Assembly: GCF_048771995.1 (NCBI RefSeq)
Contig: NC_133060.1
Location: forward strand, 1,855,501-1,919,500
DNA length: 64,000 bases
Reading direction: 5' to 3'
Source: Taeniopygia guttata
Lineage: Eukaryota; Chordata; Aves; Passeriformes; Estrildidae
A program made the position numbers and the translations under genes. This document shows, piece by piece, positions 30,533 through 59,470 of the stretch; position 1 is the first letter of the stretch; every line of letters starts with the position of its first letter. The notes beneath the pieces are model-generated. The model saw nothing but the letters and a program-made list of their open reading frames with translations, ran no database searches and was not told the origin of the DNA.

Positions 30533-30543
30533 GCAATTTTCTA

Positions 30544-30613: not shown

Positions 30614-30720
30614 GCGCGCTTTTTGGGGTGCTGCTCCCCCACTCCCGGTCCCCCCAGTTGGGCGCCGCTTTCCCGGGAGCAGCACCGGCCCTTCCCCGTG
30701 TCCCGGGAGCCCGAGGCGCC

Positions 30721-33700
30721 ATGGACGGAGCGCGGAGCCTCCCGCGGCTGCTGCCGCTGCTGGCCCTGACCCTGCCCGCGGGTTGGGGGGTCCAAGGTGG
30801 GGTTTGGGGGGTCCCGGAGCCGCGGGGTTGGGATTTGGGGTTCGCTGTATTTGGGGCAGGTCGGCAGTGAAGGGGTTAAAGGGATCCAACCCCGTTTTTC
30901 GCGGTTTTTGGGGGATTTTTGGGGGGGTTTGGGGAAGGGCGTGGTCCCGAGATGTTTTTTTGGGGGGGGGTTTCGCCCCTTTTTCGCCATTTTGGGGGTT
31001 GGGTGTGGCCGAATTCCGCTTTTTTCCAGGATTTTGGGGCTCTCGGATTTCCCAACCCCCCCTGTCCCCGGGATTTTGGGGGGCTGGGCGTGCCCGGACC
31101 CCCCTGTTCCAATTATTGGGGGGGGCTGTGAGTGCCCAAACCCCCCTGGACCCGAAATTTTGGGAACTCAAACCTTCCAAAATCATCTTCTCTCGAGATT
31201 TTTGGGGTTCTGAAAGTGCCCAAATTCCTCTTTTTCCACGATTTTTTGGGACCTGGGTGTGCCCAGACCCCCCTGTACCCAAAATTTGGGGAACTGAGAA
31301 TTCCCAAATCCCAATTTTTCCAGAATTTTGGGGATCTGGGAGTGCCTAAATCCCAATTTTCCACGATTTTTGGGATCTGGGAGTGCCTAAATCCCTTTTT
31401 TTTAGGATTTTTGGGGTCTGGGAGTGCCCAGACCCCCCTGTACCCAAAATTTGGGGAACTCAAAATTCCCAAATTCTCTTTTTCCGGAATTTTGGGGATC
31501 TGAAAGTGCCCAAATTCCTCTTTTTCCACGATTTTGGGGATCTGGGAGTGCCCAAACCCCCCTGGACACGAAATTTGGGGAACTGAGAATTCCCAAATCC
31601 CAATTTTCCCACAATTTTGTTGTTCTGGAAGTGCCTAAATCCCAATTTTCCAGGATTTTCAGAGTTTGGTGCTCCCAAAAATCCGATTTTTTGTGGAATT
31701 TTGGGCTCTGGGAGTGCCCAAACCCCCCTGTACATGAAATTTGGGGAACTGTTAATTCCCAAATCCTCTTTTTCCGGAATTTTGGGGTTCTGAAAGTGCC
31801 CAAATTCCTCTTTTTCCGCAATTTTGGGGATCTGGGAGTGCCCAGACCCCCCTGGACCCAAAATTTGGGGAACTGAGAATTCTGAAATTCTCTTTTTCCA
31901 GAATTTTTGGGATCTAGGAGTGCCCAAATCCAATTTTTCCCTGATTTTTGGGCTCTGGGAGTGCCCAAATCCCAATTTTTTAGGATTTTTGGAGTCTGGG
32001 AGTGCCCAAACCCCCCTGTACCCAAAATTTGGGGAACTCAAAATTCCCAAATTCTCTTTTTCCGGAATTTTGGGGTTCTGAAAGTGCCCAAATTCCTCTT
32101 TTTCCATGATTTTGGGGATCAGGGAGTGCACAAACAACCCTGTACCCAAAATTTGGGGAACTGAGAATTCCCAAATCCCAATTTTCCCACAATTTTGGGG
32201 CTCTGGAAGTGCCTAAATCCCAATTTTTTAGGATTTTTGGAGTCTGGGTGTTCCCAAACCCCCCTGTACCCGAAATTTGGGGAACTCAAACCTTCCCAAA
32301 TTCTCTTTTTCCGGAATTTTGGGGTTCTGAAAATGCCCAAATTCCTCTTTTTCCACCATTTTGGGGATCTGGGAGTGCCCAAACCCCCCTGTACCCAAAA
32401 TTTTGGTATCTGAGAATTCCCAAATTCTCTTTTCCCGGAATTTTGGGCATCTGGGAGTGCCTAAATCCCAATTTTTTAGGATTTTTGGGATCTGGGAGTG
32501 CCCGGACCCCCCTGTACACGAAATTTGGGGAACTGGGAATTCCCAAATCCCAATTTTCCAGAATTTTTGGGGATCTAGGAGTGCCCAAATTCCAATTTTT
32601 CCACAATTTTGGGCTCTGGAAGTGCCTAAATCCCAATTTTCCAGGATTTTTGGAGTCTGGGGTTCCCAAAAATCCGATTTTTTGTGGATTTTTGGGGTCT
32701 GGGTGTTCCCAACCCCCCCGTTCCCAAAATTTGGGGAACTGGTTTTTCTCACATCCTCTTTTCCCGGAATTTCGGGGCTGGGCGAGCCCAAATTTCCTTT
32801 TTTTTTCCAAATTTTTGGGGTCTGGGGCCTCCCAAATTCTCCTGATCCCAAAATTTTGGGGGTCTGGGAGGGCCTAAATTCCGATTTTCCGGAATTTTGG
32901 GGTTCTCGGTGTCCTCAACCTCAATTTTCCTGGGATTTGGAGTAAAAATCCTGATTTTTCTGGGATTTTGAGTAAAAAATCCTGATTTTTCCTGGGATTT
33001 TGAGTATAAATCCTTATTTTTCCTGGGATTTTTAGTAAAAATCTTGAATTTCCTGTGATTTTGAGAAAAAAATTCTGAATTTTCCCTGGATTTTGAGTAG
33101 AAATCCTCAATTTTCTGGGATTTTGAGAAGAAATTCCAAAAATTCCCAGGATTTTGAGCCGAAATCCCCAATTTTCCTGGGATTTTGTGTAAAAATACTG
33201 ATTTTTCTGGGAATTTTGAGAAAGAATCTTGAATTTTCCAGGGATTTGGAGTAGAAATTCCCAATTTTCTGGGATTTTCAGCAGAAATCACAGATTTTCC
33301 TGGAGATTTGAATAAAAAAATCCCAATTTTCCTGGGATTTTGAGTAAAAATCTATATTTTTCCTGGGATTTTGAGAAAAAAATCCCGATTTTTCTTGGAT
33401 TTTCAGCAGAAATCCCAAATTTTCCAGGAGTTTTGAAAAAAATTCCCCAATTTTCCTGGGATTTTGAGTAGAAATCTCAAATTTTCCTGTGATTTTGAGT
33501 GGAAATCCTGATTTTTTTTTCAGATCCCAAATTTTCCTGTGATTTTGATGAAAAGTCCCCAATTTTCCTGGAATTTTGATCAAAAATCCCCAAATTTCCT
33601 GGAATTTTGAGTAGAAATCTCCAATTTTCTTGGAATTTTCAACAGAAATCTCCAATTTCTCCAGGATTTCGACCAGAAATCCTAATTTATTTTTAATTTT

Positions 33701-36700
33701 TAATTCCGAACCCCAATTTCCCAGGATTTTAACCCAAAACTCTCCCCCCCAGTGGAGCACAGCATCATCCAGACGGAATTCTACCAGAAATCCCTGGATT
33801 CAAATTTCAATTACAAATCCTCAATTTTCCAGGGATTTTGAGCGGAAATCCTGATTTATTTTGAATATTAATTACAAATCCCCAATTTTCCCATGATTTT
33901 AATCTAAAATCCCAATTTTCCTGGGATTTTGAGTAGAAATCTCCAATTTTCTTGGGATTTTGAGTAAAAATCCTCAATTTTCCCAGGATTTTGAGTGGAA
34001 ATCCTGATCTTTTTTTCAGATCCCAAATTTTCCTGGGATTTTGATCAAAAATCCCCAATTTTTCTGGGATTTTGAGTAGAAATCTCCAATTTTCCTGGGA
34101 TTTTGAGTAGAAATCTCCAATTTTCCTGGAATTTTGAGTAGAAATCTCCGATTTTCTTGGAATTTTCAACAGAAATCTCCAATTTCCCATGATTTTGATA
34201 AAAAATCCCCAATTTTCCTGGAATTTTGAATAGAAATCTCAAATTTTCATGGATTTTAAGTTCAAATTCCCAATTTCCTGGGATTTTGATCAAAAATCCC
34301 CAATTTTCGTGGGATTTTGAGTAGAAATCTCCAATTTTCTTGGGATTTTGAGTAGAAATCTTCAATTTTCCCGGGAATTTGGGTGGAAATCCTGATTTTT
34401 TTTCAGATCCCAAATTTTCCTGGGATTTTGATCAAAAATTCCCGATTTTCCTGGGACTTTGAGTAGAAATCTCCAATTTTCCTGGGATTTGGAGTAGAAA
34501 TCCCAAATTTTCCTGGAATTTACATACAAATCCCCAATTTCCCATGATTTTGATAAAAATTCCCAATTTTCCTGGAATTTTAATTTTAAATCCCCAATTT
34601 TCCTGGAATTTTGAGTAGAAATCTCCGATTTTCTTGGAATTTTCAACAGAAATCTCCAATTTCCCATGATTTTGATCAAAAATTCTCGATTTTCCTGGGA
34701 TTTTGAGTAGAAATCTCCAATTTTTCCTGGGATTTTGAGTACAAATGCCAAATTTTCTTGGATTTTAAGTACAAATCCCCAATTTTCCTGAGATTTTGAG
34801 TAGAAATCCCAAATTTTCTTGGATTTTAAGTAGAAATCCCCAACTTCCCATGATTTTGATCAAAAATCCCCCATTTTCCTGGAATTTTGACCAAAAATCC
34901 CAATTTTCCTGGGATTTTGAGTAGAAATCTCCAATTTTCCTGTGATTTTGAGTGGAAATCCTGAATTTTTTTTCAGATCCAAAATTTTCCTGGAATTTCG
35001 AGCAGAAATCTCCAATTTTCTTGGAATTTTCAACAGAAATCTCCAATTTTCTTGGAATTTTCATTAAAAATCCCCAATTTTCCTGGGATTTTGAGTAGAA
35101 ATCTCAAATTTTCTTGGATTTTAGGTACAAATCCCCAATTTCCCATGATTTTGACCAAAAATCCCTAATTTTCCTGGGATTTTGAGTAGAAATATCAAAT
35201 TTTCCTAGGATTTTGAGTGGAAATCCTGATTTTTTTTTCAGATCCCAAATTTTCCTGTGATTTTGATCAAAAATTTCCGATTTTCCTGGGATTTTGAGTA
35301 GAAATCTCCAATTTTTCCTGGGATTTTGAGTACAAATGCCAAATTTTCTTGGATTTTGAGTAGGAATCCCCAATTTTTCTGGAATTTTGAGAAGAAATCC
35401 CAAATTTTCTTGGATTTTAAGTAGAAATCCCCAATTTCCCATGATTTTATTCAAAATCCCCAAATTTCCTGGAACTTTCATTAAAAATCCCCAATTTTCC
35501 TGGGATTTTGAGTAGAAATCTCCAATTTTCTTGGAATTTCCAACAGAAATCTCCAATTTCTCCGTGATTTCGAGCCAAAATCCTAATTAATTTTTATATT
35601 TTAATTCCAAACCCCCAATTTCCCAGGATTTTAACCCAAAATCCCTCTCCCCCCCAGTGGAGCACAGCATCATCCAGACGGAATTCTACCAGAAATCCCT
35701 GGATTCAAATTTAAATTACAAATCCTCAATTTTCCAGGGATTTTGAGTGGAAATCCTGATTTATTTTGAATATTAATTACAATTCCCCAATTTTCCCATG
35801 ATTTTGATGAAAAATCCCCAATTTTCCTGGAATTTTGAGTAGAAATCCCAAATTTTCTTGGATTTTAGGTACAAATCCCCAATTTCCCATGATTTTGATC
35901 AAAAATTCCTGATTTTCCTGAGATTTTGAGTAGAAATCCCAAATTTTCTTGGATTTTAATTACAAATCCCCAATTTCCGGTGATTTTGATCAAAAATTCC
36001 CGATTTTCCTGGGATTTTGAGTAGAAATCTCAAATTTTCTTGGATTTTAAGTACAAATCCCCATTTTTCCTGGGATTTGGAGTAGAAATCCCAAATTTTC
36101 CTGGAATTTACATACAAATCCCCAATTTCCCATGATTTTGATAGAAATTCCCAATTTTCCTGGAATTTTCATTAAAAATTCCCAATTTTCCTGGAATTTT
36201 CATTAAAATTCCCCAATTTTCCTGGGATTTTGAGTAGAAATCTCAAATTTTCCTGGGATTTTGAGTGGAAATCCTGATTTTTTTTCATATCCCAAATTTT
36301 CCTGGAATTTTGAGTAGAAATCTCAGATTTTCTTGGAATTTCGAGCAGAAATCCCCAATTTTCCTGGAATTTCGAGCAGAAATCTCCGATTTTCTTGGAA
36401 TTTTCAACAGAAATCTCCAATTTTTTCCAAAATTATTTTTATTTTTTAATTCCAAACCCCAATTTCCCACGATTTTAACCCAAAATCCCTCTCCCCCCCA
36501 GTGGAGCACAGCATCATCCAGACGGAATTCTACCAGAAATCCCTGGATTCGGCTCCGGACAGCGAGGAGTTCATGTTCGACTTCGACGGCGACGAGATTT
36601 TCCACGTGGAGAAGGAGGAGACGGTTTGGAGGCTGCCGGAATTCCAGGAATTCGCCAGTTTCGAGGCGCAGGGAGCGCTGCAGAACCTCGCCATCGACAA

Positions 36701-39700
36701 GCAGAACCTGGAGAGCTCCATGGCCGCCTACAACCGATCCCGCATCCCCAGCGGTAACCCGATCCCACACGGAATTCCCAAAAATTTTTGGGGGAGTTTT
36801 GGGGAATTTTGGTGGTTTGGGATGAGGTTGGAGGGGTTTGAAGCGATTTCGGGGGGTTTCGACCCCGATTTCAGAAGGTTCTTCCTGGTGGAATCCCAAA
36901 ATTTGGTGTTCCTCAAACCCAATCCCAGTTGGATCTGACCCAATCCCAGTTGGATCTGACCCCAATTCCATGGAATTTAAACCAAATTCCAGAAGGTTCC
37001 TGGTGGAATTCCAAAGTTTGGTGTTCCTCAAACCCAATCCCAGTTGGATCTGATCCAAATTTCAGGGGATTTCAACCCAATTTTAGGGAAATCCGACCCC
37101 AATTCCAGAAGGTTCCTGGTGGAATCCCAAAATTTGGTGTTCCTCAAACCCAATCCCAGTTGGATCCGACCACAATTCCAGGAATTTCAACCCAAACATC
37201 CAACCAGAGCTCCATGGCCGCCTACAACCGATCCCGCATCCCCAGCGGTAACCCCAGCCCGGATGGAATTCCCAAAAATTTGGGCGGTTTGGGATGAGGT
37301 TGGAGGGGTTTGAAGTGATTTTGGGGGGTTTCGACCCCGATTTCAGAAGGTTCTTCCTGGTGGAATTCCAAAATTTGGTGTTCCTCAAACCCAATCCCAG
37401 TTGGATCCAACTCAACCCAACTGGATCCAACCCAATCCCAGTTGGATCCAACCAAATTTTAGGGGATTTTGACCCAATTTTAGGGAAATCCGACCCCAAT
37501 TCCAGAAGGTTCCTGGTGGAATCCCAAAATTTGGTGTTCTTCAAACCCAATCCCACTTGGATCCGACCCCAATTCCATGGAATTTAAACCCAATTCCAGA
37601 AGGTTCCTGGTGGAATCCCAAATTTTGGTGTCCCTCAAACCCAATCCCAGTTGGATCCAACCCCAAATCCAGAGGATTTCAACCCAATTCCAGAAGGTTC
37701 CTGGTGGAATTCCAAAATTTGGTGTCCCTCAAACCCAATCCCAGTTGGATCCAACTCAACCCCAGTTGGTTCCAACCCAATCCCCATTGGATCCGACCCA
37801 ATTCCAGGGGATTTCAACCCAAATATCCAACCTCAATTCCAGAAGGTTCCAGGTGGAATTCCAAAATTTGGTGTCCCTCAAACCCAATCCCAGTTGGATC
37901 CAACCCAATGAAAGATGGATCTAACCCAATCCCAGTTGGATCCAACCCAATTCCAGGAGATTTCAACCCAAACATCCAAACCCAATTCCAGAAGGTTCCT
38001 GGTGGAATCCCAAACTTTGGTGTTCCTCAAACCCAACCCCAGTTGAATCCAACCCAATTCCAGGGGATTTCAACCCAAACATCCAACCAGAGCTCCATGG
38101 CCGCCTACAACCGATCCCGGATCCCCAGCGGTAACCGGATCCCACACGGAATTCCCGAAAAATTTGGGAGGGTTTTGGAGAATTTTGGGGGTTTGGGATG
38201 AGGTTGGAGGGGTTTGAAGCGATTTCGGGGGGTTTCGACCCTGATTTCAGAAGGTTCTTCCTGGTGGAATTCCATAATTTGGTGTTCCTCAAACCCAATC
38301 CCAGTTGGATCCAACTCAACCCAACTAGATCCAACCCAATCCTCGTTGGATCCAACCCCAATTCCATGGAATTTAAACCCAATTCCAGAAGGTTCCTGGT
38401 GGAATCCCAAAATTTGGTGTTCCTCAAACCCAATCCCAGTTGGATCCGACCCAATCCCAGTTGGATCCGACCCAATCCCAGTTGAATCCAACCCAATTCC
38501 AGGGGATTTCAACCCAAACATCCAACCAGAGCTCCATGGCCGCCTACAACCGATCCCGGATCCCCAGCGGTAACCCGATCCCACACAGAATTCCCGAAAA
38601 TTTGGGGGGTTTGGGATGAGGTTGGAGGGGTTTGAGGCGACCGACCCAGTTTCAAGGGATTCAAACCCAAAAATCCAACCCCAATTCCAGAAGGATCCTG
38701 GTGGAATTCCAAAATTTGGTGTTCCTCAAACCTAATCCCAGTTGGATCCAAGTTAATCCAACTGTTTCCAACCCCATCCCAGTTGGATCCAACCCAATTT
38801 CAGGGTATTTCAACCCAAAAATCCAACTCCAATTCCAGAAGGTTCCTGGTGGAATCCCAAAATTTGGTGTCCCTCAAACCCAATCCAAACTTGATCCAAC
38901 CCAACCCCAGTTGGATCCAGCCCAATCCCAGTTGGATCCGACCCAATTCCAAGGGATTTCAACCCAAAAATCCAACCCCAATTCCAGAAGGTTCCTGGTG
39001 GAATCCCAAACTTTGGTGTTCCTCAAACCCAACCCCAGTTGGATCCAACTCAACCCAGTTGGTTCCAACCCAATCCTAGATGGATCCGACCCAGTTCCAG
39101 GAGATTTCAACCCAAACATCCAACGGCAATTCCAGAAGGTTCCTGGTGGAATTCCAAACTTTGGTGTCCCTCAAACCCAACCCCAGTTGGTTCCAACTCA
39201 ACCCAACTGGATCCAACCCAACCCCAGTTGGATCCGACCCAATTTCAGGGGATTTGAACCCAAAAATCTGACCCCAATTCCAGAAGGTTCTTGGTGGAAT
39301 CCCAAAATTTGGTGTTCCTCAAACCCAATCCCAGTTGGATCCAACTCAACCCAACTGGATCCAACCCAATCCCGGTTGGATCCAACCCAATCCCAGTTGG
39401 ATCCGACCCAATTTTGGGGCATTTAAACCCAATTTTAGGGAAATCCAACCCCAATTCCAGAAGGTTCCTGGAGGAATTCCAAAATTTGGTGTTCCTCAAA
39501 CCCAATCCCAGTTGGATCCGACCCCAAATCCAGAGGATTTCAACCCAATTCCAGAAGGTTCCAGGTGGAATCCCAAATTTTGGTGTTCCTCAAACCCAAT
39601 CCCAGTTGGATCTAACTCAACCCAACTGGATTAAACCCAATCCTCATTGGATCCAAATCCAATTCCATGGAATTTTAACCCAATTCCAGAAGGTTCCTGG

Positions 39701-42700
39701 TGGAATTCCAAAATTTGGTGTTCCTCAAACCCAATCCCAGTTGGATCCAACCCCATCCCAGTTGGATCCGACCCCAAATCCAGAGGATTTCAACCCAATT
39801 CCAGAAGGTTCCTGGTGGAATCCCAAACTTTGGTGTCCCTCAAACCCAATCCCAGTTGGATCCGACCCCAATTCCAGGAATTTCAACCCAAACATCCAAC
39901 CAGAGCTCCATGGCCGCCTACAACAGATCCCGCATTCCCAGCGGTAACCCCAGCCCGGGTGGAATTCCCAAAAATTTTTGGGGGAATTTGGGAAAATTTC
40001 GGGGATTTGGGATGAGGTTGGAGGGGTTTGAAGCGATTTCGGGGGGTTTTGACCCCGATTTCAGAAGGTTCCTGGTGGAATCCCAAAATTTGGTGTTCCT
40101 CAAACCCAATCCCAGTTGGATCCAACCCCAATTCCATGGAATTTAAACCCAATTCCAGAAGGTTCCTGGTGGAATTCCCAAAATTTGGTGTCCCTCAAAC
40201 CCAATCCCAGTTGGATCTGACCGAATTTTAGGGGATTTCGACCCAATTTTAGGGAAATCCGACCCCAATTCCAGAAGGTTCCTGGTGGAATTCCAAACTT
40301 TGGTGTCCCTCAAACCCAATCCCAGTCGGATCCGACCCCAAATCCAGAGGATTTCAACCCCATTCCAGAAGGTTCCTGGTGGAATTCCAAAATTTGGTGT
40401 CCCTCAAACCTAATCCCAGTCCGATCCGACCCCAATTCCATGGAATTTAAACCAAATTCCAGAAGGTTCCTGGTAGAATCCCAAAATTTGGTGTCCCTCA
40501 AACCCAATCCCAGTTGGATCCGACCCAATTTCAGGGCATTTCAACCCAATTTTGGGGAAATCCGACCCCAATTCCAGAAGGTTCCTGGTAGAATCCCAAA
40601 TTTTGGTGTTCCTCAAACCCAATCCCAGTTGGATCCGACCCCAATTCCATAGAATTTCAACCCAAACATCCAACCAGAGCTCCATGGCCGCCTACAACCG
40701 ATCCCGCATTCCCAGTGGTAACCCCAGCCCGGACGGAATTCCCAAAAAATTTGGGGGGTTTTGGGGAATTTTGGGGGTTTGGGATGAGGTTGGAGGGCTT
40801 AGAAGCGATTTCAGGGGGTTTCGACCCCAATTCCAGAAGGTTCTTCCTGGTGGAATTCCAAAATTTGGTGTCCCTCAAACCCAATCCAAACTTGATCCAA
40901 CCCAATGAAAGATGGATCCAACCCAATCCCAGGGGATTTCAACCCAAAAATCCGACCCCAATTCCAGAAGGTTCCTGGTGGAATTCCAAAGTTTGGTGTT
41001 CCTCAAACCCAACCCCAGTTGGATCTGACCCAATCCCAGTTGGATCCGACCCAATTCCATGGAATTTAAACCCAATTCCAGAAGGTTCCTGGTGGAATTC
41101 CAAAATTTGGTGTCCCTCAAACCCAATCCCAATTGGATAGACCCAATTCCAGGAATTTCAACCCAAACATCCAACCAGAGCTCCATGGCCGCCTACAACC
41201 GATCCCGCATTCCCAGCAGTAACCCCATCCCGGACGCAATTCCCAAAAAATTTGGGGGGTTTGGGATGAGGTTGGAGGGGTTTGAAGCGATTTCGGGGGG
41301 TTTCGACCCTGATTCCAGAAGGTTCTTCCTGGTGGAATTCCAAATTTTGGTGTTCCTCAAACCCAATCCAAACTTGATCCAACCCAATGAAAGATGGATC
41401 CAACCCCAGTCCCAGTTGGATCCGACCCAATCCCAGTTGGATCCAACCCCAATTCCAGAAGGTTCCTGGTGGAATTCCAAAATTTGGTGTCCCTCAAACC
41501 CAATCCCAGTTGAATCCAACCAAATTTTAGGGGATTTCGACCCAATTTTAGGGAAATCCGACCCCAATTCCAGAAGGTTCCTGGTGGAATCCCAAATTTT
41601 GGTGTTCCTCAAACCCAATCCAAACTTGATCCAACCCAACCCCAGTTGGATCCGACCCAATCCCAGTTGGATCCGATCCCAATTCCATGGAATTTAAACC
41701 CAATTCCAGAAGGTTCCTGGTGGAATTCCAAAATTTGGTGTCCCTCAAACCCAATCCCAGTTGGATCCAACCCAATCCCAGTTGGATCCGACCCCAATTC
41801 CAGGGGATTTCAACCCAAAAATCCAACCCCAATTCCAGAAGGTTCCTGGTGGAATCCCAAAAATTGGTGTTCCTCAAACCCAATCCCAGTTGGATCCGAC
41901 CCAATTTTAGTGGGTTTCAACCCAATTTTAGGGAAATCCGACCCCAATTCCAGAAGGTTCCTGGTGGAATCCCAAAATTTGGTGTTCCTCAAACACAATC
42001 CCAGTTGGATCCAACCCAATTCCAGGGGATTTCAACCCAAACATCCAACCCCAATTCCAGAAGGTTCTTGGTGGAATCCCAAACTTTGGTGTTCCTCCGA
42101 CCCAACCCCAGTTGGTTCCAACCCAACCCCAGTTGGATCGACCTCAACCCCAACTGGTTCCAACTCAATCCCAGTTGGACCCAACCCAATTTCAGAGGAT
42201 TTCAACCCAAAAATCCAACCCCAATTCCAGAAGGATCCTGGTGGAATTCCAAACTTTGGTGTCCCTCAAACCCAATCCAAACTTGATCCAACCCAATGAA
42301 AGATGGATCCAACCCAATCCCAGTTGGATCCAACCCAATCCCAGTTGGATCTCACCCAATTCCAGGGGATTCAAACCCAAAAATCCAACATCAATTCCAG
42401 AAGGTTCCTGGTGGAATTCCAAAATTTGGTGTCCCTCAAACCCAATCCAAACTTGATCCAACCCAACCCCAGTTGGTTCCAACTCAATTCCAGTTGGATC
42501 CGACCCAATTCCAGGGGATTTCAACCCAAAAATCCGACCCCAATTCCAGAAGGTTTCTGGTGGAATTCCAAAATTTGGTTTCCCTCAAACACAACCCCAC
42601 TTGGATCCAACTCAATGAAAGATGGATCCAACCCAATCCCAGTTCAATCGAACTCAATCCCAGTTAGATCCAACCCAATCCTAGATGGATCCAACCCAAT

Positions 42701-45700
42701 TCTAGGAGATTTCAACCCAAAAATCCAACCCCAATTCCAGAAGGTTCCTGGTGGAATTCCAAAGTTTGGTGTCCCTCAAACCCAACCCCATTTGGTTCCA
42801 ACCCAATTCCAGGAGATTTCAACCTAAACATCCAACGGTAATTCCAGAAGGTTCCTGGTGGAATCCCAAAATTTGGTGTCCCTCAAACCCAATCCCAGTT
42901 GGATCCAACTCAATGAAAGATGGATCCAACCCAATCCCAGTTGGATCCGACCCAATTTCAGGGGATTCCAACCCAAAAATCCAACCCCAATTCCAGAAGG
43001 TTCCTGGTGGAATCCCAAACTTTGGTGTTCCTCCGACCCAATCCCAGTTGGATCCAACTTAATCCCAATTGGATCCAATTTAACCCCTGTTGGTTCCAAC
43101 CCAATCCCAGTTGGATCCAACCCAATCCTAGATGGATCCGACCCAATTTCAGGGGATTTGAACCCAAAAATCCGACCCCAATTCCAGAAGGTTCCTGGTG
43201 GAATCCCAAAGTTTGGTGTCCCTCAAACCCAAACCCAGTTGGATCCAACCCAATGAAAGATGGATCCAACCCAACCCCAGTTGGATCCGACCCAATTTCG
43301 GCAGATTTCAACCCAAACATCCAAGCCAAATTCCAGAAGCTTCCTGGTGGAATCCCAAACTTTGGTGTCCCTCAAACCCAATCCCAGTTGGTTCCAACCC
43401 AACCCAACTGGTTCCAACCCAATCCCAGTTGGATCCGACCCAATTTCAGGGGATTTCAACCCAAAAATCCAACCCCAATTCCAGAAGGTTCCTGGTGGAA
43501 TCCCAAAATTTGGTGTCCCTCAAACCCAACCCCAGTTGGATCCAACCCAATTCCAGGGGATTTCAACCCAAACATCCGACCCCAATTCCAGAAGGTTCCT
43601 GGTGGAATCCCAAACTTTGGTGTCCCTCAAACCCAATCCCAGTTGGATCCAACCCAATCCTAGATGGATCCGACCCAATTTCAGGGGATTTCAACCCAAA
43701 CATCCATGCCAAATTCCAGAAGGTTCCTGGTGGAATCCCAAACTTTGGTGTCCCTCAAACCCAATCCCAGTTGGATCCAACCCAATCCTAGATGGATCCG
43801 AACCATTTCCAAGGGATTTCAACCCAAACATCCAACGGCAATTCCAGAAGGTTCCTGGTGGAATTCCAAACTTTGGTGTCCCTCAAACCCAACCCCAGTT
43901 GGATCCAACCCAATTTCAGGAGATTTCAACCCAAGAATCCAGCCCCAATTTCAGAAGGATCCTGGTGGAATCCCAAAATTTGGTGTCCCTCAAACCCATC
44001 CCCAGTTGGTTCCAACCCAACCCCAGTTGGATCCAACCCCATTCCCGACCACCCCACCCCAAATCCCACCTTTTCCCGATTCCCGGCCCCCAGAGCCCCC
44101 GGAAGTGGCCGTGTTCCCCAAGCACCCGGTGGAGGACGAGGAGCCCAACATCCTGATCTGCTCCGTCACCAAGTTCTGGCCGGCGGCGCTGGGGGTGACG
44201 TGGCTGCGCAACGGGGCGCCGGTGACGCGCGGCGTCCTGGAGACGCCAATCCCGGCCGGGCCCCGCCCGATCCCGGGGGATTCCAACCCAGTTCCGGCCT
44301 CGGGGGTTCCTCAGCCCAATCCCAGTTGGATCCGACCCAATTTCAGGGGATTCAAACCCAAAAATCCGACCCCAATTCCAGAAGGTTCCAGGTGGAATCC
44401 CAAACTTTGGTGTTCCTCAAACCCAACCCCAGTTGGATCCAACCCAATCCCAGTTGGATCCGACCCAATCCTAGATGGATCCGACCCAATTCCAGGGGAT
44501 TTCAACCCAAACATCCAAGCCCAATTCCAGAAGGTTCGTGGTGGAATTCCAAAGTTTGGTGTCCCTCAAACCAAAGCCCAGTTGGTTCCAACCCAATCCC
44601 AGTTGGATCCGACCCAATTCCAGGGGATTTCAACCCAAAAATCTGACCCCAATTCCAGAAGGTTCCTGGTGGGATCCCAAACTTTGGTGTCCCTCAAACC
44701 CAATCCCAGTTGGATCCAACCCAATCCCAGTTGGTTCCAACCCATTTTCAGGGGATTCAAACCCAAAAATCTGACCCCAATTCCAGAAGGTTCCTGGTGG
44801 AATCCCAAACTTTGGTGTTCCTCAAACCCAATCCAAACTTGATCCAACTCAATGAAAGATGGTTCCAACCCAATCCTAGATGGGTCTGACCCAATTTTGG
44901 CAGATTTCAACCCAAACATCCAAGCCAAATTCCAGAAGGTTCCTGGTGGAATTCCAAACTTTGGTGTCCCTCAAACCCAATCCCAGTTGGATCCAACCCA
45001 ATCCTAGATGGATCCGACCCATTTCCAGGGGATTTCAACCCAAACATCCAACCCCAATTCCAGAAGGTTTCTGGTGGAATTCCAAACTTTGGTGTCCCTC
45101 AAACCCAATTGCATCTAACTTAATCCAACTGGTTCCAACCCAATCCCAGTTGGATCCAACTCAACCCCAGTTGGTTCCAACCCAATTCCAAGGGATTTCA
45201 ACCCAAACATCCAACGGCAATTGCAGAAGGTTCCTGGTGGAATTCCAAACTTTGGTGTCCCTCAAAGCCAATCCCACTTGGATCCAACCCCAATTCCATG
45301 GAATTTAAGCCAAATTCCAGAAGGTTCCTGGTGGAATCCCAAACTTTGGTGTCCCTCAAACCCAATCCCAGTTGGATCCGACCCAATTTCAGGGGATTTC
45401 AACCCAAGAATCCAACCCCAATTCCAGAAGGTTCCTGGTGGAATCCCAAACTTTGGTGTCCCTCAAACCCAATCCCAGTTGGATCCAACCCAATTCCCGA
45501 CCACCCCACCCCAAATCCCAACTTTTCCCGATTCCCGGCCCCCAGAGCCCCCGGAAGTGGCCGTGTTCCCCAAGCACCCGGTGGAGGACGAGGAGCCCAA
45601 CATCCTGATCTGCTCCGTCACCAAGTTCTGGCCGGCGGCGCTGGGGGTGACGTGGCTGCGCAACGGGGCGCCGGTGACGCGCGGCGTCCTGGAGACGCCG

Positions 45701-48700
45701 TTCTACCCCGACCGCGACTTCACCTTCCGCAAGTTCTCCTACCTGCCCTTCGTGCCCGCGCCCGGCGACTACTACGACTGCCAGGTGGAGCACGAGGGGT
45801 TGGCCAAGCCCGCCAAGATGCATTGGGGTGAGATTTGGGGGTTTTGGGAAAAAAAAATCCAAATTTTGGGGGAAAAAATTATGGTTTTTTTGGGGGAAAA
45901 TGGGGGTTTTTGGGGAAAAAATGTGGGGTTTTGGTGGAAAAAATTGGATTTTTGGGGTTTTGGAGAAATTGGGATTTGGGGTTATCAGGACTGCCAGGTG
46001 GAGCACAACGGGATTTGGGGTTTTTGGGATTTTTGGAAAAAAATTATTGGTGTTTTTTGGGAAAAAATGGAGGTTTTGGGGGAAAAATTGGATTTTTCGC
46101 GGAAAAAAAATTGGATTTTTGGGGTTTGGAAAAGTGGGATTTGGGGTCTGCAAGGTGGACCATGAGGGCTTGGCCAAGCCCACCAAGATGCATTGGGGTG
46201 AGATTTGGGGGTTTTGGGAAAAAAAATCTGAATTTTGGGGGAAAAAATATGGGGTTTTGGGTGGAAAATGGGGTTTTTTTGGGAAAAAAAATGGGATTTT
46301 TTGGGTTTTTGGTTTGGGAAAATTGGGATTTGGAATTTGTAAGGGTTGGCCAAGCCCACCAAGATGCATTGGGGTGAGATTTGGGGGTTTTGGGAAAAAA
46401 AATCTGAATTTTGGGGAGAAATATGGGATTTTTTGGGAAAAAATTGGATTTTTGGGTTAAAAATAAGGGTTTTTTGAGAAAAAAATAGGATTTTTGGGGT
46501 TTGGGAAAATGGGGATTTGGGGTTGTCAGGTGGGCCATGAGGGGATTTGGGGTTTTTGGCATTTTTGGGAAAAAAATTATGGTGTGTTTGGGGAAAAATA
46601 TGGGGTTTGGGGGGAAATGGGGGTTTTGGGGGAAAAAAATGGGATTTTTGAGGGATTGGGATTTGGAATTTGTAAGGGATGGCCAAGCCTGGAAAGATGA
46701 GATTTGGGGTTTTTGGGGAAAAAAATGGGGTTTTTAGGAAAAAAATGGGATTTTTGGGGGAAAAATGGAGGTTTTGGAGGAAAAATGGGATTTTTCGCGG
46801 AAAAAAAAATTGATTTTTAGGGTTTGGGAAAATTGGGATTTGGGATTTGCAAGGTGGAGCAGGAAGGGATGGCCAGGATGCATTGGGGTGAGATTTGGTG
46901 TTTTTGGGAAAAAATGGGACAAAATTTGGGGTTTTTAGGGAAAAAACGGGATTTTTGGGAAAAAATAATGGGGTTTTGGGGAAAAAATGGGATTTTTGGG
47001 GTTTGGGACAATTGGGATTTGGGTTATTAGGATGGCAAGGTGGAGTAGGAAGGGATGGCCAAGCCCACCAAGATGCATTGGGGTGAGATTTGGGGGTTCT
47101 GGGAAAAAAAATTATGGGGTTTTTGGGGAAAAATGGGATTTTTGGGGAAAAATAATGGGGTTTTGGGGAAAAAAATTGGATTTTTGAGGTTTTTGGTTTG
47201 GGAAAATTGGGATTTGGAATTTGTAAGGGATGGCCAAACTTGGAAATATGAGATTTGGGGCTTTTGGGAAAAAAATTATGGTGTTTTTAGGGTAAAATGG
47301 GATTTTTGGGAAAAAAATAAGGGTTTTTTGGAGAAAAAATGGGATTTTTGGGGTTTGGGAAAAGTGGGATTTGGGGTTTGCAAGGTGGAGCAGGAAGGGA
47401 TGGCCAAGCCTGGAAAGATGCTTTGGGGTGAGATTTGGGGGTTTTGGGAAAAAAAATCTAAATATTGGGGGGAAAATATGGGGTTTTTGGGGGAAAAATG
47501 GGGGGTTTTGGGAAAAAATGGGATTTTGGTGGAAAAAAAATTGGATTTTTGGGGTTTGGGAAAATGGGGATTTGGGGTTATCACGACTGCCAGGTGGAGC
47601 ACGAGGGGATTTGGGGGTTTTGGCATTTTTGGGATTTTTTTGATTTTTGGGAAAAAAAATCATGGTGTTTTTTGGGAAAAATGGAGGTTTTTGGGAAAAA
47701 AATGGGGTTTTGGTGGAAAAAAATTGATTTTTGGGGTTTGGGAAAAGTGGGATTTGGGATTTGCAAGGTGGAGCAGGAAGGGATGGCCAAGCCCACCTAG
47801 ATGCATTGGGGTGAGATTTGGGGATTTTGGGAAAAAAAATTATGGGGTTTTGTGGAAAAAATGGGATTTTTGGGGAAAAAACCCCAAGATTTTGGGGGAA
47901 AAAATTGGATTTTTGGGGTTTGGGAAAATTGGGATTTGGGGTTATTAGGATGGCAAGGTGGAGCAGGAAGGGATGGCCAAGCCCACCAAGATGCATTGGG
48001 GTGAGATTTGGGATTTTTGGGAAAAAAATGGGACAAAATTTGGGGTTTTTAGGAAAAAATGGGATTTTGGGGAAAAAAATATGGGGTTTTGGGGAAAAAA
48101 TTGGATTTTTGGGGTTTGGGACAATTGGGATTTGGGATTTGCAAGGTGGAGCACGAGGGGTTGGCCAAGCCCACCAAGATGGATTGGGGTGAGATTTGGG
48201 GGTTTTGGGAAAAAAATTTAAATTTTGGGGGAAAAAATATGGGGTTTTGGGGGGAAAAAAATGGGTTTTTGGGGTTTGGGAAAAGTGGGATTTGGGGTTT
48301 GCAAGGTGGAGCAGGAAGGGATGGGCAAGTCCACCAAGATGCATTGGGGTGAGATTTGGGGGTTTTGGGAAAAAAATGGGACAAAACTATGGGGTTTTTG
48401 GGGGAAAAAAAGGGATTTTTGGGAAAAAATAAGGTTTTTTTTGGAGAAAAAATGGGATTTTTGGGGTTTGGGAAAAGTGGGATTTGGGATTTGCAAGGTG
48501 GAGCAGGAAGGGACGGCCAAGCATGGAAAGATGGATTGGGGTGAGATTTGGGGATTTTGGGAAAAAAAATTATGGGGTTTTTGGGGGGAAATATGGGATT
48601 TTTTTGGGAAAAAATGGGATTTTTTTGGGAAAAAAATGGGATTTTTGGGGTTTGGGACAATTGGGATTTGGGTTATTAGGATGGCAAGGTGGAGCAGGAA

Positions 48701-51700
48701 GGGGTGGCCAAGCCCACCAAGATGCATTGGGGTGAGATTTGGGGGTTTTGGGAAAAAAATTATGGTGTTTTTGGGGAAAAATATGGGATTTTTGGGGAAA
48801 AAATTGGATTTTTGGGGAAAAAATTATGGGGGTTTTGCAGGAAAAACAGGATTTTTGGGGTTTGGGAAAATGGGGATTTGGGGTTATCAGGTGGGGCATG
48901 AGGGGATTTGGAGTTTTTGGGATTTTTGGGGAAAAAATATGGGGTTTTGGGGGAAAATGGGATTTTTGGGGAAAAAAATATGGGGTTTTGGGGGAAAAAA
49001 TAGGATTTTTGGGGTTTTGGGAAAATTGGGATTTGGGGTTATCAGGACTGCCAGGTGGAGCATGAGGGAATTTGGGGTTTTTGGCATTTTTGGGATTTTT
49101 GGGAAAAAAATTATTGGTGTTTTTGGGGAAAAATGGAGGTTTTTGGGGAAAAAAATGGGGTTTTGGGGAAAAAATTGGATTTTTGGGGTTTGGGAAAAGT
49201 CAGATTTGGGATTTGAAAGGTGGAGCATGAGGGGATGGCCGAGCATGGAAAGATGCATTGGGGTGAGATTTGGGGGTTTTGGGAAAAAAATGGGACAAAA
49301 TTTGGGGTTTTTAGGAAAAAATGGGATTTTGGGGAAAAAATATGTGGTTTCAGGGGAAAAATGGGGGTTTTGGGAAAAAAATGGGATTTTTGAGGTTTTT
49401 GGTTTGGGAAAATTGGGATTTGGAATTTGCAAGGGATGGCCAAGCCTGGAAAGATGAGATTTGGGGTTTTTGGGGAAAAAAATGGGGTTTTAGGAAAAAA
49501 ATGGGATTTTTGAGAAAAAAAATGGGGTTTATGGGGAAAAAAAGTGGATTTTTGGGGTTTGGGAAAAGTGGGATTTGGGATTTGCAAGGTGGAGCAGGAA
49601 GGGATGGCCAAGCCCACCAAGATGGATTGGGGTGAGATTTGGGGGTTTTGGGAAAAAAATTTAAATTTTTGAGGGAAAAATATGGGTTTTTTTGGGGGGA
49701 AAATGGGATTTTTTGGGGGGAAATGGGGGGCTTTTGGGAAAAAATAAGGGTTTTTTTGAGAAAAAATTGGATTTTTGAGGTTTGGGAAAATGTGGATTTG
49801 GGGTTATCAGGTGGGGCATGAGGGGATTTGGAGTTCTTGGGATTTTTGGGGAAAAATTATGGGATTTTTGAGGAAAAAATGGGGGTTTTGGGAAAAAATA
49901 ATGGGGTTTTGGGGAAAAAAATTGGATTTTTGGGGTTTGGGACAATTGGGATTTGGGTTATTAGGATGGCAAGGTGGAGCACAAGGGGTTGGCCAAGCCC
50001 ACCAAGATGCATTGGGGTGAGATTTGGGGGTTTTGGGAAAAAAATCCGAATTTTTGAGGGAAAAAATATGGGGTTTTGGGTGGAAAAATGGGATTTTTGG
50101 GGAAAAATTATGGGGGTTTTGCAGGAAAAATAGGATTTTTGGGGGTTTAGGAAAATGCGGATTTGGGGTTGTCAGGTGGGCCATGAGGGGATTTGGAGAT
50201 TTTGGGATTTTTGGGAAAAAATTATGGGGTTTTCGGAGTAAAATGAGATTTATTGAGGAAAAAAATATGGAGTTTTGGGGGAAAAAATTGGATTTTTGAG
50301 GTTTTGGGGAAATTGGGATTTGGGGTTATCAGGACTGCCAGGTGGAGCATGAGGGAATTTGGGGTTTTTGGCATTTTTGGGATTTTTGGGAAAAAAAAAA
50401 ATGGTGTTTTTGGGGGAAAAATGGAGGTTTTGGGGGAGAAAGGGGATTTTGGGGAGAAAAAATTTGGATTTTTGGGGTTTGGGAAAATGGGGATTTGGGA
50501 TTTGAAAGGTGGAGCAGGAAGAGATGGCAAAGAGGCATTGGGGTGAGATTTGGGGGTTTTGGGAAAAAAAATTATGGTGTTTTTGGGGAAAAATGGGATT
50601 TTTGGGGAAAAAAATATGGGGTTTGGGGAAAAATGGGGGTTTTGGAGAAAAAAATGGGATTTTTGGGGTTTTTGGTTTGGGAAAATTGGGATTTGGGATT
50701 TGCAAGGGATGGCCAAGCCTGGAGAGATGAGATTTGGGGTTTTTGGGGAAAAAAAATAGGGAAAAATGGGGTTTTTAGGAAAAAAAATGGGATTTTTGGG
50801 AAAAAATAATGGGGTTTTGGGGAAAAAATTGGATTTTTGGGGTTTTGGAAAAGTGGGATTTGGGATTTGAAAGGTGGAGCATGACGAGATGGCCAAGCAT
50901 AGAAAGATGCATTGGGGTGAGATTTGGGGGTTTTGGGGAAAAAAAATCCAAATTTTGGGGGAAAAAATATGGGGTTTTGGGGGAAAAATATGGGGGGTTT
51001 TGGGAAAAAATAAGGGTTTTTTGAGAAAAAATTGGTTTTTTGGGGTTTGGGAAAATGTGGATTTGGGGTTGTCAGGTGGGCCATGAGGGGATCTAGAGTT
51101 TTTGGGATTTTTTGGGAAAAAATTATTGTGTTTTTGGGGAAAAATGGAGGTTTTGGGGGAAAAATTGGATTTTTCGCGGAAAAAAAATTTGATTTTTGGG
51201 GTTTGGGAAAAGTGGGATTTGGGATTTGCAAGGTGGAGCAGGAAGGGATGGCCAAGAGGCATTGGGGTGAGATTTGGGGTTTTGGGGAAAAAAATGGGAA
51301 AAAATTTGGGGTTTTTAGGGAAAAAACTTTGGGTATTTTTGGGATTTGGGGTGGAAATTGCAGGATATGGGAAAATTGGGATTTGGGATTTGGGAAAATG
51401 GGAATTTGGGAGGAGAAACAATTTGGGAAGAGTCAAAATTCGGGAATTTTACGATGAGCAGCGAACGGGACGAAGCCGAGGAAGGATTTGGGACGAGGAA
51501 GAGATTTGGGATCGCCCCAAAATTTTGGGAATTTGGGATTTTTTTTCCTTCAGAACCCCAAATCCTGGCGCCGGCGTCGGAGGCCACGGAGACGGCGATT
51601 TGTGCCCTGGGCCTGGCCGTGGGCATCGTGGGCATCACCGCGGGCACCATCCTCATCATCCGCGGGATGAAGCTCGGCCGCGCCCGCCCCGAGCGCGGCG

Positions 51701-51708
51701 TGCTCTGA
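30721..51708 (+). CDS. DAA: MHC class II alpha chain (DRA-like)
   Basis: The coding sequence makes 254 residues, the same length as HLA-DRA. Exons are 30721-30796 (signal peptide), 36502-36753 (alpha-1, 252 bp), 45546-45827 (alpha-2, 282 bp) and 51554-51708 (connecting peptide, membrane, tail). All junctions are GT/AG and phase 1. Alpha-1 contains QTEFYQKS, DGDEIFHVEKEETVWRLP, FASFEAQGALQNLAIDKQNL and the N-glycosylation site YNRS. Alpha-2 has the Ig cysteines in ILICSVTKFWP and YDCQVEHEGL. The membrane helix ALGLAVGIVGITAGTILII keeps the glycine spacing that pairs with the beta helix. DRA-type features place it in the DR lineage. Introns of 5.7, 8.8 and 5.7 kb are almost wholly satellite, which is extreme for this family. 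Start context is GCCATGG. It is the only alpha gene in the window. Confidence 0.95.
31130..32935. repeat. Intron 1 array a of IIA
   Basis: Tandem units of about 60-90 bp combine CCCAAATTTCGGG-type blocks with CTGGGAGTGCCCAAACCCCC and CCCAAAATTTGGGGAACT. The region before it, 30797-31130, is related but more irregular and G-rich. Confidence 0.88.
33753..33801 (+). pseudogene. Copy of the first 49 bp of IIA exon 2 (a)
   Basis: It matches 36502-36550, from TGGAGCACAGC to CTGGATTC, and is preceded by the same polypyrimidine tract and AG, so the 3' splice site was copied too. After it the sequence returns to array b. It cannot encode an alpha-1 domain. Confidence 0.93.
35658..35706 (+). pseudogene. 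Copy of the first 49 bp of IIA exon 2 (b)
   Basis: The same 49 bp with the same break point as the copy at 33753, including the acceptor. The identical break shows that one captured piece was later duplicated with the array. Confidence 0.93.
37206..37247 (+). pseudogene. Copy of the last 42 bp of IIA exon 2 (a)
   Basis: It matches the end of exon 2 from AGAGCTCCATGGCC to CCCAGCG and keeps the following GTAAC donor. It forms part of a larger repeat that also contains the intron bases after exon 2 (GGTTTGGGATGAGGTTGG). Confidence 0.93.
38089..38130 (+). pseudogene. Copy of the last 42 bp of IIA exon 2 (b)
   Basis: The same fragment with intact GTAAC donor. Confidence 0.93.
38528..38569 (+). 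pseudogene. Copy of the last 42 bp of IIA exon 2 (c)
   Basis: The same fragment with intact GTAAC donor, 439 bp after copy b. Confidence 0.93.
39902..39943 (+). pseudogene. Copy of the last 42 bp of IIA exon 2 (d)
   Basis: The same fragment with donor. An Arg codon is changed from CGA to AGA without altering the encoded residue. Confidence 0.92.
40676..40717 (+). pseudogene. Copy of the last 42 bp of IIA exon 2 (e)
   Basis: The same fragment; the last exon bases read AGTG before the GTAAC donor. Confidence 0.92.
41177..41218 (+). pseudogene. Copy of the last 42 bp of IIA exon 2 (f)
   Basis: The same fragment; the last exon bases read AGCA before GTAAC. It is the most distant from exon 2. 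Confidence 0.92.
44094..44247 (+). pseudogene. Copy of the first 154 bp of IIA exon 3
   Basis: It matches 45546-45699 with no difference that I could see, preceded by the same acceptor and about 60 bp of the same flank. It stops at GGAGACGCC, before the second cysteine and the donor, so it cannot make a working alpha-2 domain. Its distance from the real exon is 1.45 kb. Confidence 0.94.
45840..51340. repeat. Intron 3 array of IIA with about 17 exon-3 ends
   Basis: Units of about 170-190 bp consist of GGGGTTTTGGGGAAAAAA-like sequence, nearly free of C on the + strand. Each includes a degraded copy of the end of exon 3 (CAAGGTGGAGCA ... AAGATGCATTGGGG) with the donor GTGAGATTTG. Copies of the end and donor lie near 46191, 46367, 46881, 47075, 47421, 47804, 47994, 48182, 48342, 48534, 48725, 49255, 49625, 50010, 50536, 50910 and 51260. 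Confidence 0.93.
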
Positions 51709-52868: not shown

Positions 52869-52976
52869 TGTGCCCTGGGCCTGGCCGTGGGCATCGTGGG
52901 CATCACCGTGGGCACCATCCTCATCCTCCGCGGGATGAAGCTCGGCCGCGCCCGCCCCGAGCGCGGCGTGCTCTGA
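52869..52976 (+). pseudogene. Copy of the last 108 bp of IIA exon 4 (a)
   Basis: It matches exon 4 from TGTGCCCTGGGCC to the TGA, with the tail frame and stop kept. It has no acceptor. It encodes the membrane helix and tail only, with CTC in place of ATC at one codon (Leu for Ile). Confidence 0.93.
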
Positions 52977-54204: not shown

Positions 54205-54312
54205 TGTGCCCTGGGCCTGGCCGTGGGCATCGTGGGCATCACCGCGGGCACCATCCTCATCCTCCGCGGGATGAAGCTCGGCCGCGCCCGCCCCGAGCGC
54301 GGCGTGCTCTGA
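54205..54312 (+). pseudogene. Copy of the last 108 bp of IIA exon 4 (b)
   Basis: The same 108 bp and left break point as copy a, 1336 bp further on. Confidence 0.93.
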
Positions 54313-55291: not shown

Positions 55292-55399
55292 TGTGCCCTG
55301 GGCCTGGCCGTGGGCATCGTGGGCATCACCGCGGGCACCATCCTCATCCTCCGCGGGATGAAGCTCGGCCGCGCCCGCCCCGAGCGCGGCGTGCTCTGA
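55292..55399 (+). pseudogene. Copy of the last 108 bp of IIA exon 4 (c)
   Basis: The same 108 bp, 1087 bp after copy b. Confidence 0.93.
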
Positions 55400-56095: not shown

Positions 56096-56203
56096 TGTGC
56101 CCTGGGCCTGGCCGTGGGCATCGTGGGCATCACCGCGGGCACCATCCTCATCCTCCGCGGGATGAAGCTCGGCCGCGCCCGCCCCGAGCGCGGCGTGCTC
56201 TGA
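56096..56203 (+). pseudogene. Copy of the last 108 bp of IIA exon 4 (d)
   Basis: The same 108 bp, 804 bp after copy c. After it the array continues for over 3 kb with no further copy. Confidence 0.93.
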
Positions 56204-59200
56204 GCGCCCCAAAATCCCAAAAAACGGCCCCAAAATCCAGCCCCGAGTCCCAAAAAACGGCCCCAAAATCCAGCCCCGAGTCCCAAAAAATGGCCCCAAA
56301 ATCCAGCCCCAAATCCCAATAATGACCCCAAAATCCCAAAGAACGGCCCCAAAATCCAGCCCCAAAATCCCAAATAATGACCCCAAAATCCCAAAGAACG
56401 GCCCCAAAATCCAGCCCCAAATCCCAGAAAATGGCCCCAAAATCCAGCCCCAAATCCCAAATAATGGCCCCAAAATCCAGCCCTGAATCCCAAAAAACGG
56501 CCCCAAAACCCAGCTCCGAATCCCAAAAAAATGGCCCCAAAACCCAGCCCCGAATCCCAAATAATGACCCTAAAATCCAGCCCCGAGTCCCAAAAAATGG
56601 CCCCAAAATCCAGCCCTGAGTCCCAAAAAAACGGCCCCAAATTCCAGCCCCAAGTCCCAAAGCATGACCCCAAAATCCCAAAGAATGGCCCCAAAATCCA
56701 GCCCCGAGTCCCAAAAAACGGCCCCAAAACCCAGCCCCGAATCCCAAATAATGACCCCAAAATCCAGCCCTGAGTCCCAGAAAATGACCCCAAAACCCAG
56801 CCCCGAATCCTGAAGCATGACCCCAAAATCCCAAAGAACAGCCCCAAAATCCAGCCCCAAATCTCAGAGAATGGCCCCGAATTCCAGCCCCAAATCCCAA
56901 ATAATGGCCCCAAAATCCAGCCTCAAATCCCAAATAATGACCCCAAAATCCAGCCCCGAGTCCCAAATAATGACCCCAAAATCCAGCCCTGAATCCCAAA
57001 TAATGGCCCCAAAATCCAGCCCCAAATCCCAAAAAATTCCCCCAAATTCCAGCCCCAAGTCCCAGAAAATGGCCCCAAAATCCAGCCCCAAATCCCAGAA
57101 AATGGCCCCAAAATCCAGCCCCAAAATCCCAAAGCATGACCCTAAAATCCAGCCCTGAGTCCCAAAGCATGACCCCAAAATCCCGAAGAATGGCTCCCAA
57201 AATCCAGCCCCAAAATCCCATAAAATGACCCCAAAACCCAACCCCAAATCCAGCCTGAAATCCCAAAAATCGACCCCAAAATCCAGTGCCAGATCCCAAA
57301 AAATTACCTTGAAATCCAGCCCCAAAATCCCAAATAACGGGCCCAATATCCAGCCCCAAATCCCAAAATTTGACCCCAAAACCCAGCCCCAAATCCTGCA
57401 AAATGTCTCTGATAAATGTGTGCAAAACCCTGCAAAATGACCCCAAAATCTGTCCTGAAATCCAGCCCCGAGTCCCACAGAATTACCCCAAATCCAGCCC
57501 CAAAATCCCAAAGCATTACCCCAAAATCCCAAAGAATGGCCCCAAAATCCAGCCCTGAATCCCAAAAAATGGCCCCAAAACCCAGCCCCAAATCCCAAAG
57601 AACGGCCCCAAAATCCCAAAGAACGGCCCCAAAATCCAGCCCCAAATCCCAAATAATGACCCCAAAATCCAGCCCCAAATCCCAAATAATGACCCCGAAT
57701 TCCAGCCCGGAATCCTAGAAAATGGCCCCAAAATCCATCCCCAAATCCCAAAAAATGGCCCCAAAATCCAGCCCTGAATCCCGAAGCATGACCCCAAAAT
57801 CCCAAAGAACAGCCCCAAAATCCAGCCCCGAGTCCCAAAAAATGACCCCAAAATCCAAGAAAATGGCCCCAAAATCCAGCCCCGAGTCCCAAATAATGAC
57901 CCCAAAATCCCGAAGAATGGCCCCCAAAATCCAGCCCCAAATCCCAAATAATGGCCCCAAAATCCAGCCCCGAGTCCCAGAAAATGGCCCCAAATTCCAG
58001 CCCCAAGTCCCAAATAATGGCACCAAAATCCCAAATAATGGCCCCAAAATCCAGCCCCGAATCCCAAATAATGGCACCAAAATCCAGCCCCAAAATCCCA
58101 GAAAATGGCCCCAAAATCCAGCCCCGAATCCCAAATAATGACCCCAAAATCCCGAAGAATGGCCCCCAAATCCAGCTCCAAATCCCAAATAATGGCCCCA
58201 AAATCCAGCTCCAAATCCCAAATAATGGCCCCAAAATCCAGCTCCAAATCCCAAATAATGGCCCCAAAATCCAGCCCCAAAATCCCAAATAATGGCCCCA
58301 AAACCCAGCCCCGAGTCCCAGAAAATGGCCCCAAAACCCAGCCCCGAATCCCAAAGCATGACCCCAAAATCCCAAATAATGGCCCCAAAACCCAGCTCCA
58401 AATCCCAGAAAATGGCCCCAAATCCCAGCCCAAAATCCCAAAAAATGGCACCAAAATCCAGCCCCAAGTCCCAGAAAATGGCCCCAAAACCCAGCCCCAG
58501 ATCCCAAAGAATGGCCCCAAATTCCAGCCCCGGATCCCAAAAAATGGCCCCAAAATCCCGAAGAATGGCCCCCAAAATCCAGCCCCAAGTCCCAGAAAAT
58601 GGCCCCAAAATCCAGCCCCGAATCCCAAAAATTGACCCCAAATTCCAGCCCCAAATCCCAAAAAATGGCCCCAAAATCCAGCCCCGAATCCCAAAGCATG
58701 ACCCCAAAATCCCAAAGAACCGCCCCAAAATCCCAAAGAACAGCCCCAAATTCCAGCCCCAAAATCACAGAAAATTGCCCCAAAACACAGCCCTGAATCC
58801 CAAATAATGGCCCCAAAATCCAGCCCCAAATCCCAAAGAATGGCCCCAAAATCCAGCCTGAAATCTCAGAAAATGGCCCCAAAACCCAGCCCTGAATCCC
58901 AGAAAACGGCCCCAAATTCCAACCCCGAGTCCCAAATAATGGCCCCAAAATCCAGCCCTAAAATCCCAAATAATGGCCCCAAAATCCAGCCCCGAATCTC
59001 AAAGCATGACCCCAAATTCCCAAAGAACGGCCCCAAAACCCGTCCCCAAATCCCAAATAATGGCCCCAAATTCCAGCCCAGAATCCCAGAAAATGGCCCC
59101 AAAATCCCAAATAATGGCACCAAAATCCAGCCCCAAATCCCAAAAAAACGGCCCCAAAATCCAGCCCCAAATCCCAAAAAATGGCCCCAAAATCCAGCCC

Positions 59201-59470
59201 CAAAATCCTGAAGCATGACCCCAAAATCCCAAAAAAGGCCCCAAAATCCAGCCCTGAGTCCCAAAAAACGGCCCCAAAATCCAGCCCCAAATCCCAAATA
59301 ATGACCCCAAAATCCAGCCCCAAATCCAGCGTGAAATCCCAAAAAACGGCCCCAAAATCCAGCCCCAAAACCCCGCAGCATGACCCCAAAATCCAAACCC
59401 AAATCCAGCCCCAAATTCCAGCCCCAAATCCCAAAAAATGGCCCCAAAATCTGTCCCCAAATCCCAAAAA

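Follow-up and report, generated by a model that had tools for sequence, protein, structure and literature searches.

Exon edges of an MHC class II alpha gene in Taeniopygia guttata are copied into its introns and 3′ flank, very probably through exon stuttering

Results

Gene content of the window

The window, by which we mean the whole 64,000-nucleotide stretch of DNA that was analysed, contains a single MHC class II alpha (IIA) gene, with at least five IIB genes upstream of it. A single IIA gene accompanied by many IIB genes has also been found in the great reed warbler and zebra finch (PMC10349553). The IIA gene has four exons and is intact. When the exons were joined and translated, a coding sequence of 765 bp (255 codons with the stop) was obtained, with canonical GT/AG splice sites and no internal stop. 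The product harbours the Pfam domains MHC_II_alpha and C1-set, and its top match among solved structures was HLA-DR alpha. A phospholipase meaning of "IIA" was dropped, because the motif scan was empty. The exons are positioned as follows.

30721-30796, plus strand: exon 1, signal peptide (coding join without stop; 3′ border not copied)
36502-36753, plus strand: exon 2, alpha-1 domain, intact (coding join, Pfam)
45546-45827, plus strand: exon 3, alpha-2, C1-set domain, intact (coding join, Pfam, profile)
51554-51708, plus strand: exon 4, connecting peptide/TM/tail/stop, intact (5′ border not copied)

In the stretch that separates the divergently oriented IIB and IIA genes (30500-30640), TGACTCATCAACG and CTGATTGGCTG resemble the X2 and Y boxes of the class II promoter. 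The IIB genes themselves combine strong homogenisation with diversification: exon 3 of five of them (894-1178, 4949-5233, 11796-12080, 19552-19836 and 28135-28419) is identical across 345 bp, a span that takes in 30 bp on either side, next to an exon 2 that is 10-20% different between genes. Their intron arrays, as detected by TRF, consist of 10- and 31-bp units. At 1-7165, IIB genes A (plus strand) and B (minus strand) lie tail to tail, with a 23-bp array between them (2543-3038). Since the similarity of the two genes over long stretches is only 81-87%, this arrangement is not a fold-back assembly palindrome.

Exon edges are copied into introns 1 and 2

Tandem repeats make up nearly all of introns 1-3 of the IIA gene, as delineated by TRF and profile arrays, as well as the DNA 3′ of the gene. 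The first-pass annotation had listed five captures of exon edges in these repeats and had suggested a tandem-repeat finder as a check. TRF returned arrays in introns 1 and 2, and when each exon was searched against the 64-kb window with BLASTN, all five exon-edge families were recovered where they had been placed. The E-values of the BLASTN matches were as low as 1e-78, and when the IIA intervals were shuffled 20 times no match of 20 bp or longer was obtained, which excludes a chance origin. No middle parts of exons were among the BLASTN matches in the window. The features of introns 1 and 2 are the following.

31031-32906, plus strand: intron 1 array, unit of about 41 bp, no captured exon (TRF)
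32919-36426, plus strand: intron 1 array, unit of about 31 bp, holding both exon 2 start captures (TRF)
33753-33801, plus strand: exon 2 first 49 bp, copy 1, with acceptor (49/49 identical, acceptor intact)
35658-35706, plus strand: exon 2 first 49 bp, copy 2 (49/49 identical, 3′ junction as in copy 1)
36860-45497, plus strand: intron 2 array, 21-bp and about 94-149-bp period units, ending just short of exon 3 (TRF and reading)
37206-37247, plus strand: exon 2 last 42 bp with donor and intron start, copy 1 (identical to the exon)
38089-38130, plus strand: exon 2 last 42 bp, copy 2 (BLASTN/alignment)
38528-38569, plus strand: exon 2 last 42 bp, copy 3 (BLASTN/alignment)
39902-39943, plus strand: exon 2 last 42 bp, copy 4 (BLASTN/alignment)
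40676-40717, plus strand: exon 2 last 42 bp, copy 5 (BLASTN/alignment)
41177-41218, plus strand: exon 2 last 42 bp, copy 6 (BLASTN/alignment)
44094-44247, plus strand: exon 3 first 154 bp with acceptor, single copy in intron 2 (154/154 exon positions identical)

Along with the acceptor, the exon 2 start copies bring about 70 bp of non-array sequence from the intron end; in the exon 2 end copies, the donor is included together with about 100-130 bp from the intron start. The six 42-bp exon 2 end copies differ from the exon at 0, 1, 1, 2, 2 and 2 positions, and substitutions that they have in common divide them into two subgroups. The capture of the exon 3 start, fairly described before as half of the exon (154 of 282 bp), carries about 52 bp of the intron end (51/52 identical). 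At its junction, the stretch 44248-44311 is GC-rich and array-like with many A/T to G/C changes; a close parent of this stretch was looked for in intron 2 and none was found.

It had been claimed that every array in and after the IIA gene had captured an exon edge. This is true for the arrays that hold the five families, but no copies of the exon 1 3′ border or the exon 4 5′ border were obtained by BLASTN of the exons or by the published screen described below. The 41-bp array at 31031-32906 gave no exon match either, and the arrays beyond 59470 likewise yielded no exon copy. Five of the seven exon borders that face an array or intron are captured, and at least two arrays are without a capture.

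The intron 3 array consists of exon-headed units

45780-51410, plus strand: intron 3 array, 31 units in tandem (132-239 bp), each with the exon 3 end at the head (iterated nhmmer, unit alignment)

Unit 1 of this array is the real exon end (the last approximately 50 bp of exon 3) and the other 30 units start with a version of the exon 3 end, some much reduced. About 20 of these copies were detected by BLASTN and 30 by profile, and the exact donor, GGG followed by GTGAGA, is retained in 17 of the 30. In the unit alignment the mean identity among units is about 78%. The exon 3 frame runs on without a stop for about 110 codons of the intron (45828-46162), up to the first intact copied donor, and DCQVEH recurs in this frame.

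The arrays had been proposed to grow outward from the exon borders. Intron 3 agrees with this proposal in that 31/31 units start with the exon 3 end, but elsewhere it is not supported. Outside intron 3, one to six captures lie amid dozens to hundreds of exon-free units, and were therefore probably added to pre-existing arrays. Even in intron 3 an ordered outward series was not borne out, as similarity does not drop with distance from the real edge (Spearman rho −0.10, p 0.60).

The end of exon 4 is copied beyond the stop codon

51709-59470, plus strand: array 3′ of the stop codon, related CCCCAAAATCC-type units (reading; G4 motifs on the template strand)
52869-52976, plus strand: exon 4 last 108 bp including the stop, copy 1 (BLASTN/alignment)
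54205-54312, plus strand: exon 4 last 108 bp including the stop, copy 2 (BLASTN/alignment)
55292-55399, plus strand: exon 4 last 108 bp including the stop, copy 3 (BLASTN/alignment)
56096-56203, plus strand: exon 4 last 108 bp including the stop, copy 4 (BLASTN/alignment)

Each exon 4 end copy has 1-2 mismatches (98-99% identity to exon 4). A private A-to-C difference at 51658 is common to all four, and human DRA has Ile-Ile at this site, in agreement with the real exon 4. The four copies therefore probably derive from one founder, in which the change at 51658 probably arose before the spread.

On the plus strand after the stop, no canonical or close poly(A) signals were found other than ATTAAA sites from 60152 onward, so the 3′ UTR may include the 3′ array together with the exon 4 copies. 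At 60038-61753 a unit of about 168 bp is repeated ten times, several of the repeats having ATTAAA, and the 3′ end of the IIA gene may itself have been multiplied.

Each multi-copy family has one junction

The break points given before (49, 42 and 108 bp) were exact in the alignments and common within the families. According to the first-pass annotation, captured pieces with unshared break points would speak against its reading; instead, a single exon cut site is joined to the same array sequence within each multi-copy family. At the exon 2 start GGATTC is joined to AAATTT, at the exon 2 end ATCCAACC to AGAGCTCC and at the exon 4 end CAAACTC to TGTGCC. The single exon 3 start copy has GACGCC joined to AATCCC. 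The exon 3 end break lies near 45778, the heads of the intron 3 units being too diverged to display the cut in each unit. These common junctions and the private substitutions point to one founding event for each family. No microhomology was present at the exon 2 end junction; at the other founding junctions the parent repeat has diverged.

All five families are in direct orientation on the same strand, with exon starts upstream and exon ends downstream of their own exon. That most copies bring contiguous intron DNA, directly oriented and on the expected side, argues for an origin by tandem duplication, and the contiguous intron sequence excludes a cDNA origin. As noted before, splice sites were amplified along with the exon parts: at least 26 copied sites are intact, namely 6 exon 2 donors, 17 exact exon 3 donors and 3 acceptors.

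Divergence is near zero for the exon 3 start and about 1% for exon 4, while in the intron flanks it reaches about 5% for the exon 2 start and about 10% for the exon 2 end, and in intron 3 about 20%. Since these values are unequal, the captures look like a continuing process and not a single burst. Between real and copied sequence, 8 of 504 positions differ in the exon parts and 62 of 814 in the flanks. Gene conversion between exon and copies was considered and is unsupported, as the contrast at the exon 2 end reaches only p 0.05 and the intron 3 heads are less conserved than the rest of the unit. Likewise, selection on the copies finds no support in a comparison of exon-derived parts with their surroundings, the former being not clearly more conserved in intron 2 (p 0.05) and having lower identity in intron 3.

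Published screen and comparison with the IIB genes

The screen of Hron et al. 2026 was rerun (blastn-short, bit score of at least 42.1, plus strand only), and the 3′ flank was included as a further interval. For the IIA gene 24 matches were obtained, 24/24 in adjacent (proximal) intervals, and the rerun gave no distal exon matches in non-adjacent intervals. The same screen gave no exon-edge copies in IIB genes B-E (4/4), despite their arrays. Because these genes, situated within the same 30 kb, have arrays without captures, location alone does not produce captures.

Discussion

Exon stuttering in the IIA gene

Sequence stuttering and exon stuttering were described on chicken dot chromosomes by Hron et al. 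(Genome Biol Evol, February 2026; PMC12954441). The term denotes local intron expansions, some of which come from a lateral exon part with its splice donor or acceptor (PMC12954441). The growth seen here had been presented as novel, a claim that is superseded by the exon stuttering found in 115 chicken genes and 236 introns (PMC12954441). Strong length variation of the stuttered introns among individuals is a main feature in chicken, and stuttering is strongly but not absolutely tied to dot chromosomes (PMC12954441). Chr16 is among the chicken dot chromosomes (PMC9974502), and chicken MHC genes are listed on chr16 in a published table (PMC2907588); the IIA gene, too, may lie on a dot chromosome. 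"MHC" and "chromosome 16" are absent from the main text of the stuttering paper (PMC12954441), and the searched passages of the MHC literature make no mention of intron repeats in IIA genes.

The IIA gene fits the definition of stuttering, with exon 2 copies in introns 1 and 2 and exon 3 copies in introns 2 and 3, all direct. The copied parts reach the border base with contiguous flank, and all 24 matches passed the bit-score threshold, were proximal and stood against shuffles that gave none. In addition, intact coding exons are combined with introns heavily covered by imperfect tandem repeats. We give a probability of roughly 0.88 to the reading that exon stuttering accounts for the structure of this MHC class II alpha gene.

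As a mechanism, we propose that duplication continues in the tandem arrays of the introns and of the DNA beyond the stop codon, presumably through replication slippage, repair or unequal recombination. Occasionally a direct tandem duplication would have one end in an exon and the other in the adjoining array, and would leave an intact exon together with a partial exon copy that carries a splice site and flanking intron. Duplications that damage an exon would be purged by purifying selection, so that harmless border copies remain, and later duplication within the array would multiply the exon copy along with its private junction. G4 structure was suggested by Hron et al. as a possible driver of stuttering (PMC12954441). 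G4-forming motifs number 25 in intron 3 (coding strand) and 26 in the 3′ flank (template strand), but are scarce in introns 1 and 2 although both hold captures; G4 can therefore not be the sole driver.

Alternative explanations

The exon copies are most likely passengers. It is improbable that alternative or extended IIA transcripts which tune class II expression make use of the copied donors and acceptors and of the exon 4 ends that precede the first canonical poly(A) signal, array length setting the splicing and output of the single alpha chain common to many beta chains. The intact copied splice sites (at least 26) and the exon 3 extension, open for about 110 codons up to the first intact copied donor, would allow such use, and a potential for alternative transcripts was noted for chicken (PMC12954441). 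However, the copied acceptor in intron 2 lies downstream of the copied donors, and introns 1 and 3 have one kind of site each, so that no copied pair brackets a ready-made exon. Moreover, the exon 2 extension and both captured acceptors of intron 1 run into stops, and the exon-derived parts are not distinctly better conserved than their surroundings (intron 2 p 0.05; lower identity in intron 3).

An assembly artefact, in which long-read errors collapsed or expanded repeats and created the exon copies, seems slightly less probable again. The region is strongly repetitive and exact copy numbers may be wrong, but the copies sit in diverged repeats (intron 3 units average about 78% alike), with nested family-specific substitutions and common junctions, and a like structure in chicken PHF8 was confirmed by raw nanopore reads (PMC12954441).

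Least probable of all are decayed relics of whole duplicated exons or IIA gene copies: MHC genes often duplicate, as the five or more IIB copies in the window illustrate, but within each family the copies cover a single edge of a single exon, break off at an identical base and adjoin array sequence there, and neither exon middle parts nor copies in non-adjacent intervals were found.

Implications

Exon stuttering in the IIA gene would extend the phenomenon to an MHC class II gene and suggests that the process is able to run past the last exon. What appears to be new is that an MHC gene is involved, that copies derive from five of its seven borders and that the terminal exon is copied beyond the stop. 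Since each family has one junction, the IIA gene can separate the start of stuttering, a duplication ending in an exon, from its spread. With a divergence between almost nil and about 20%, the captures should be datable across related birds, and the IIB genes alongside (at least five, with arrays without captures in the four tested) offer a built-in comparison. Exon-based probes, short reads and annotation pipelines are liable to misread the IIA gene.

Comparison with known systems

Within the locus itself, both IIA and IIB genes have intron arrays, whereas exon-edge copies are absent from IIB genes B-E. In the human interferon-induced 6-16 (IFI6/G1P3) gene, a minisatellite supplies multiple splice donors. 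As in the IIA gene, a tandem repeat across an exon-intron border multiplies the donor there; unlike in the IIA gene, the unit is short and confined to one place, and is not known to involve many borders and multiple kilobases.

The IIA gene resembles chicken exon stuttering in its partial edge copies with splice sites, its imperfect tandem arrays of adjacent intron and its intact coding exons. Its exon parts of 42-154 bp, in 1-30 copies and without distal matches, are within the chicken ranges of 20-187 bp (median 36) and 1-44 copies, where more than 90% of the parts lie within one base of the border (PMC12954441). The exon 4 family lies in the 3′ flank and not in an intron, and thus falls outside the strict wording of stuttering and the published intron-only screen. 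The IIA gene further differs from the chicken cases in belonging to MHC class II alpha, in the number of borders copied within one gene (five of seven), in the copying of a terminal exon end with its stop and in an intron 3 that consists entirely of exon-headed units.
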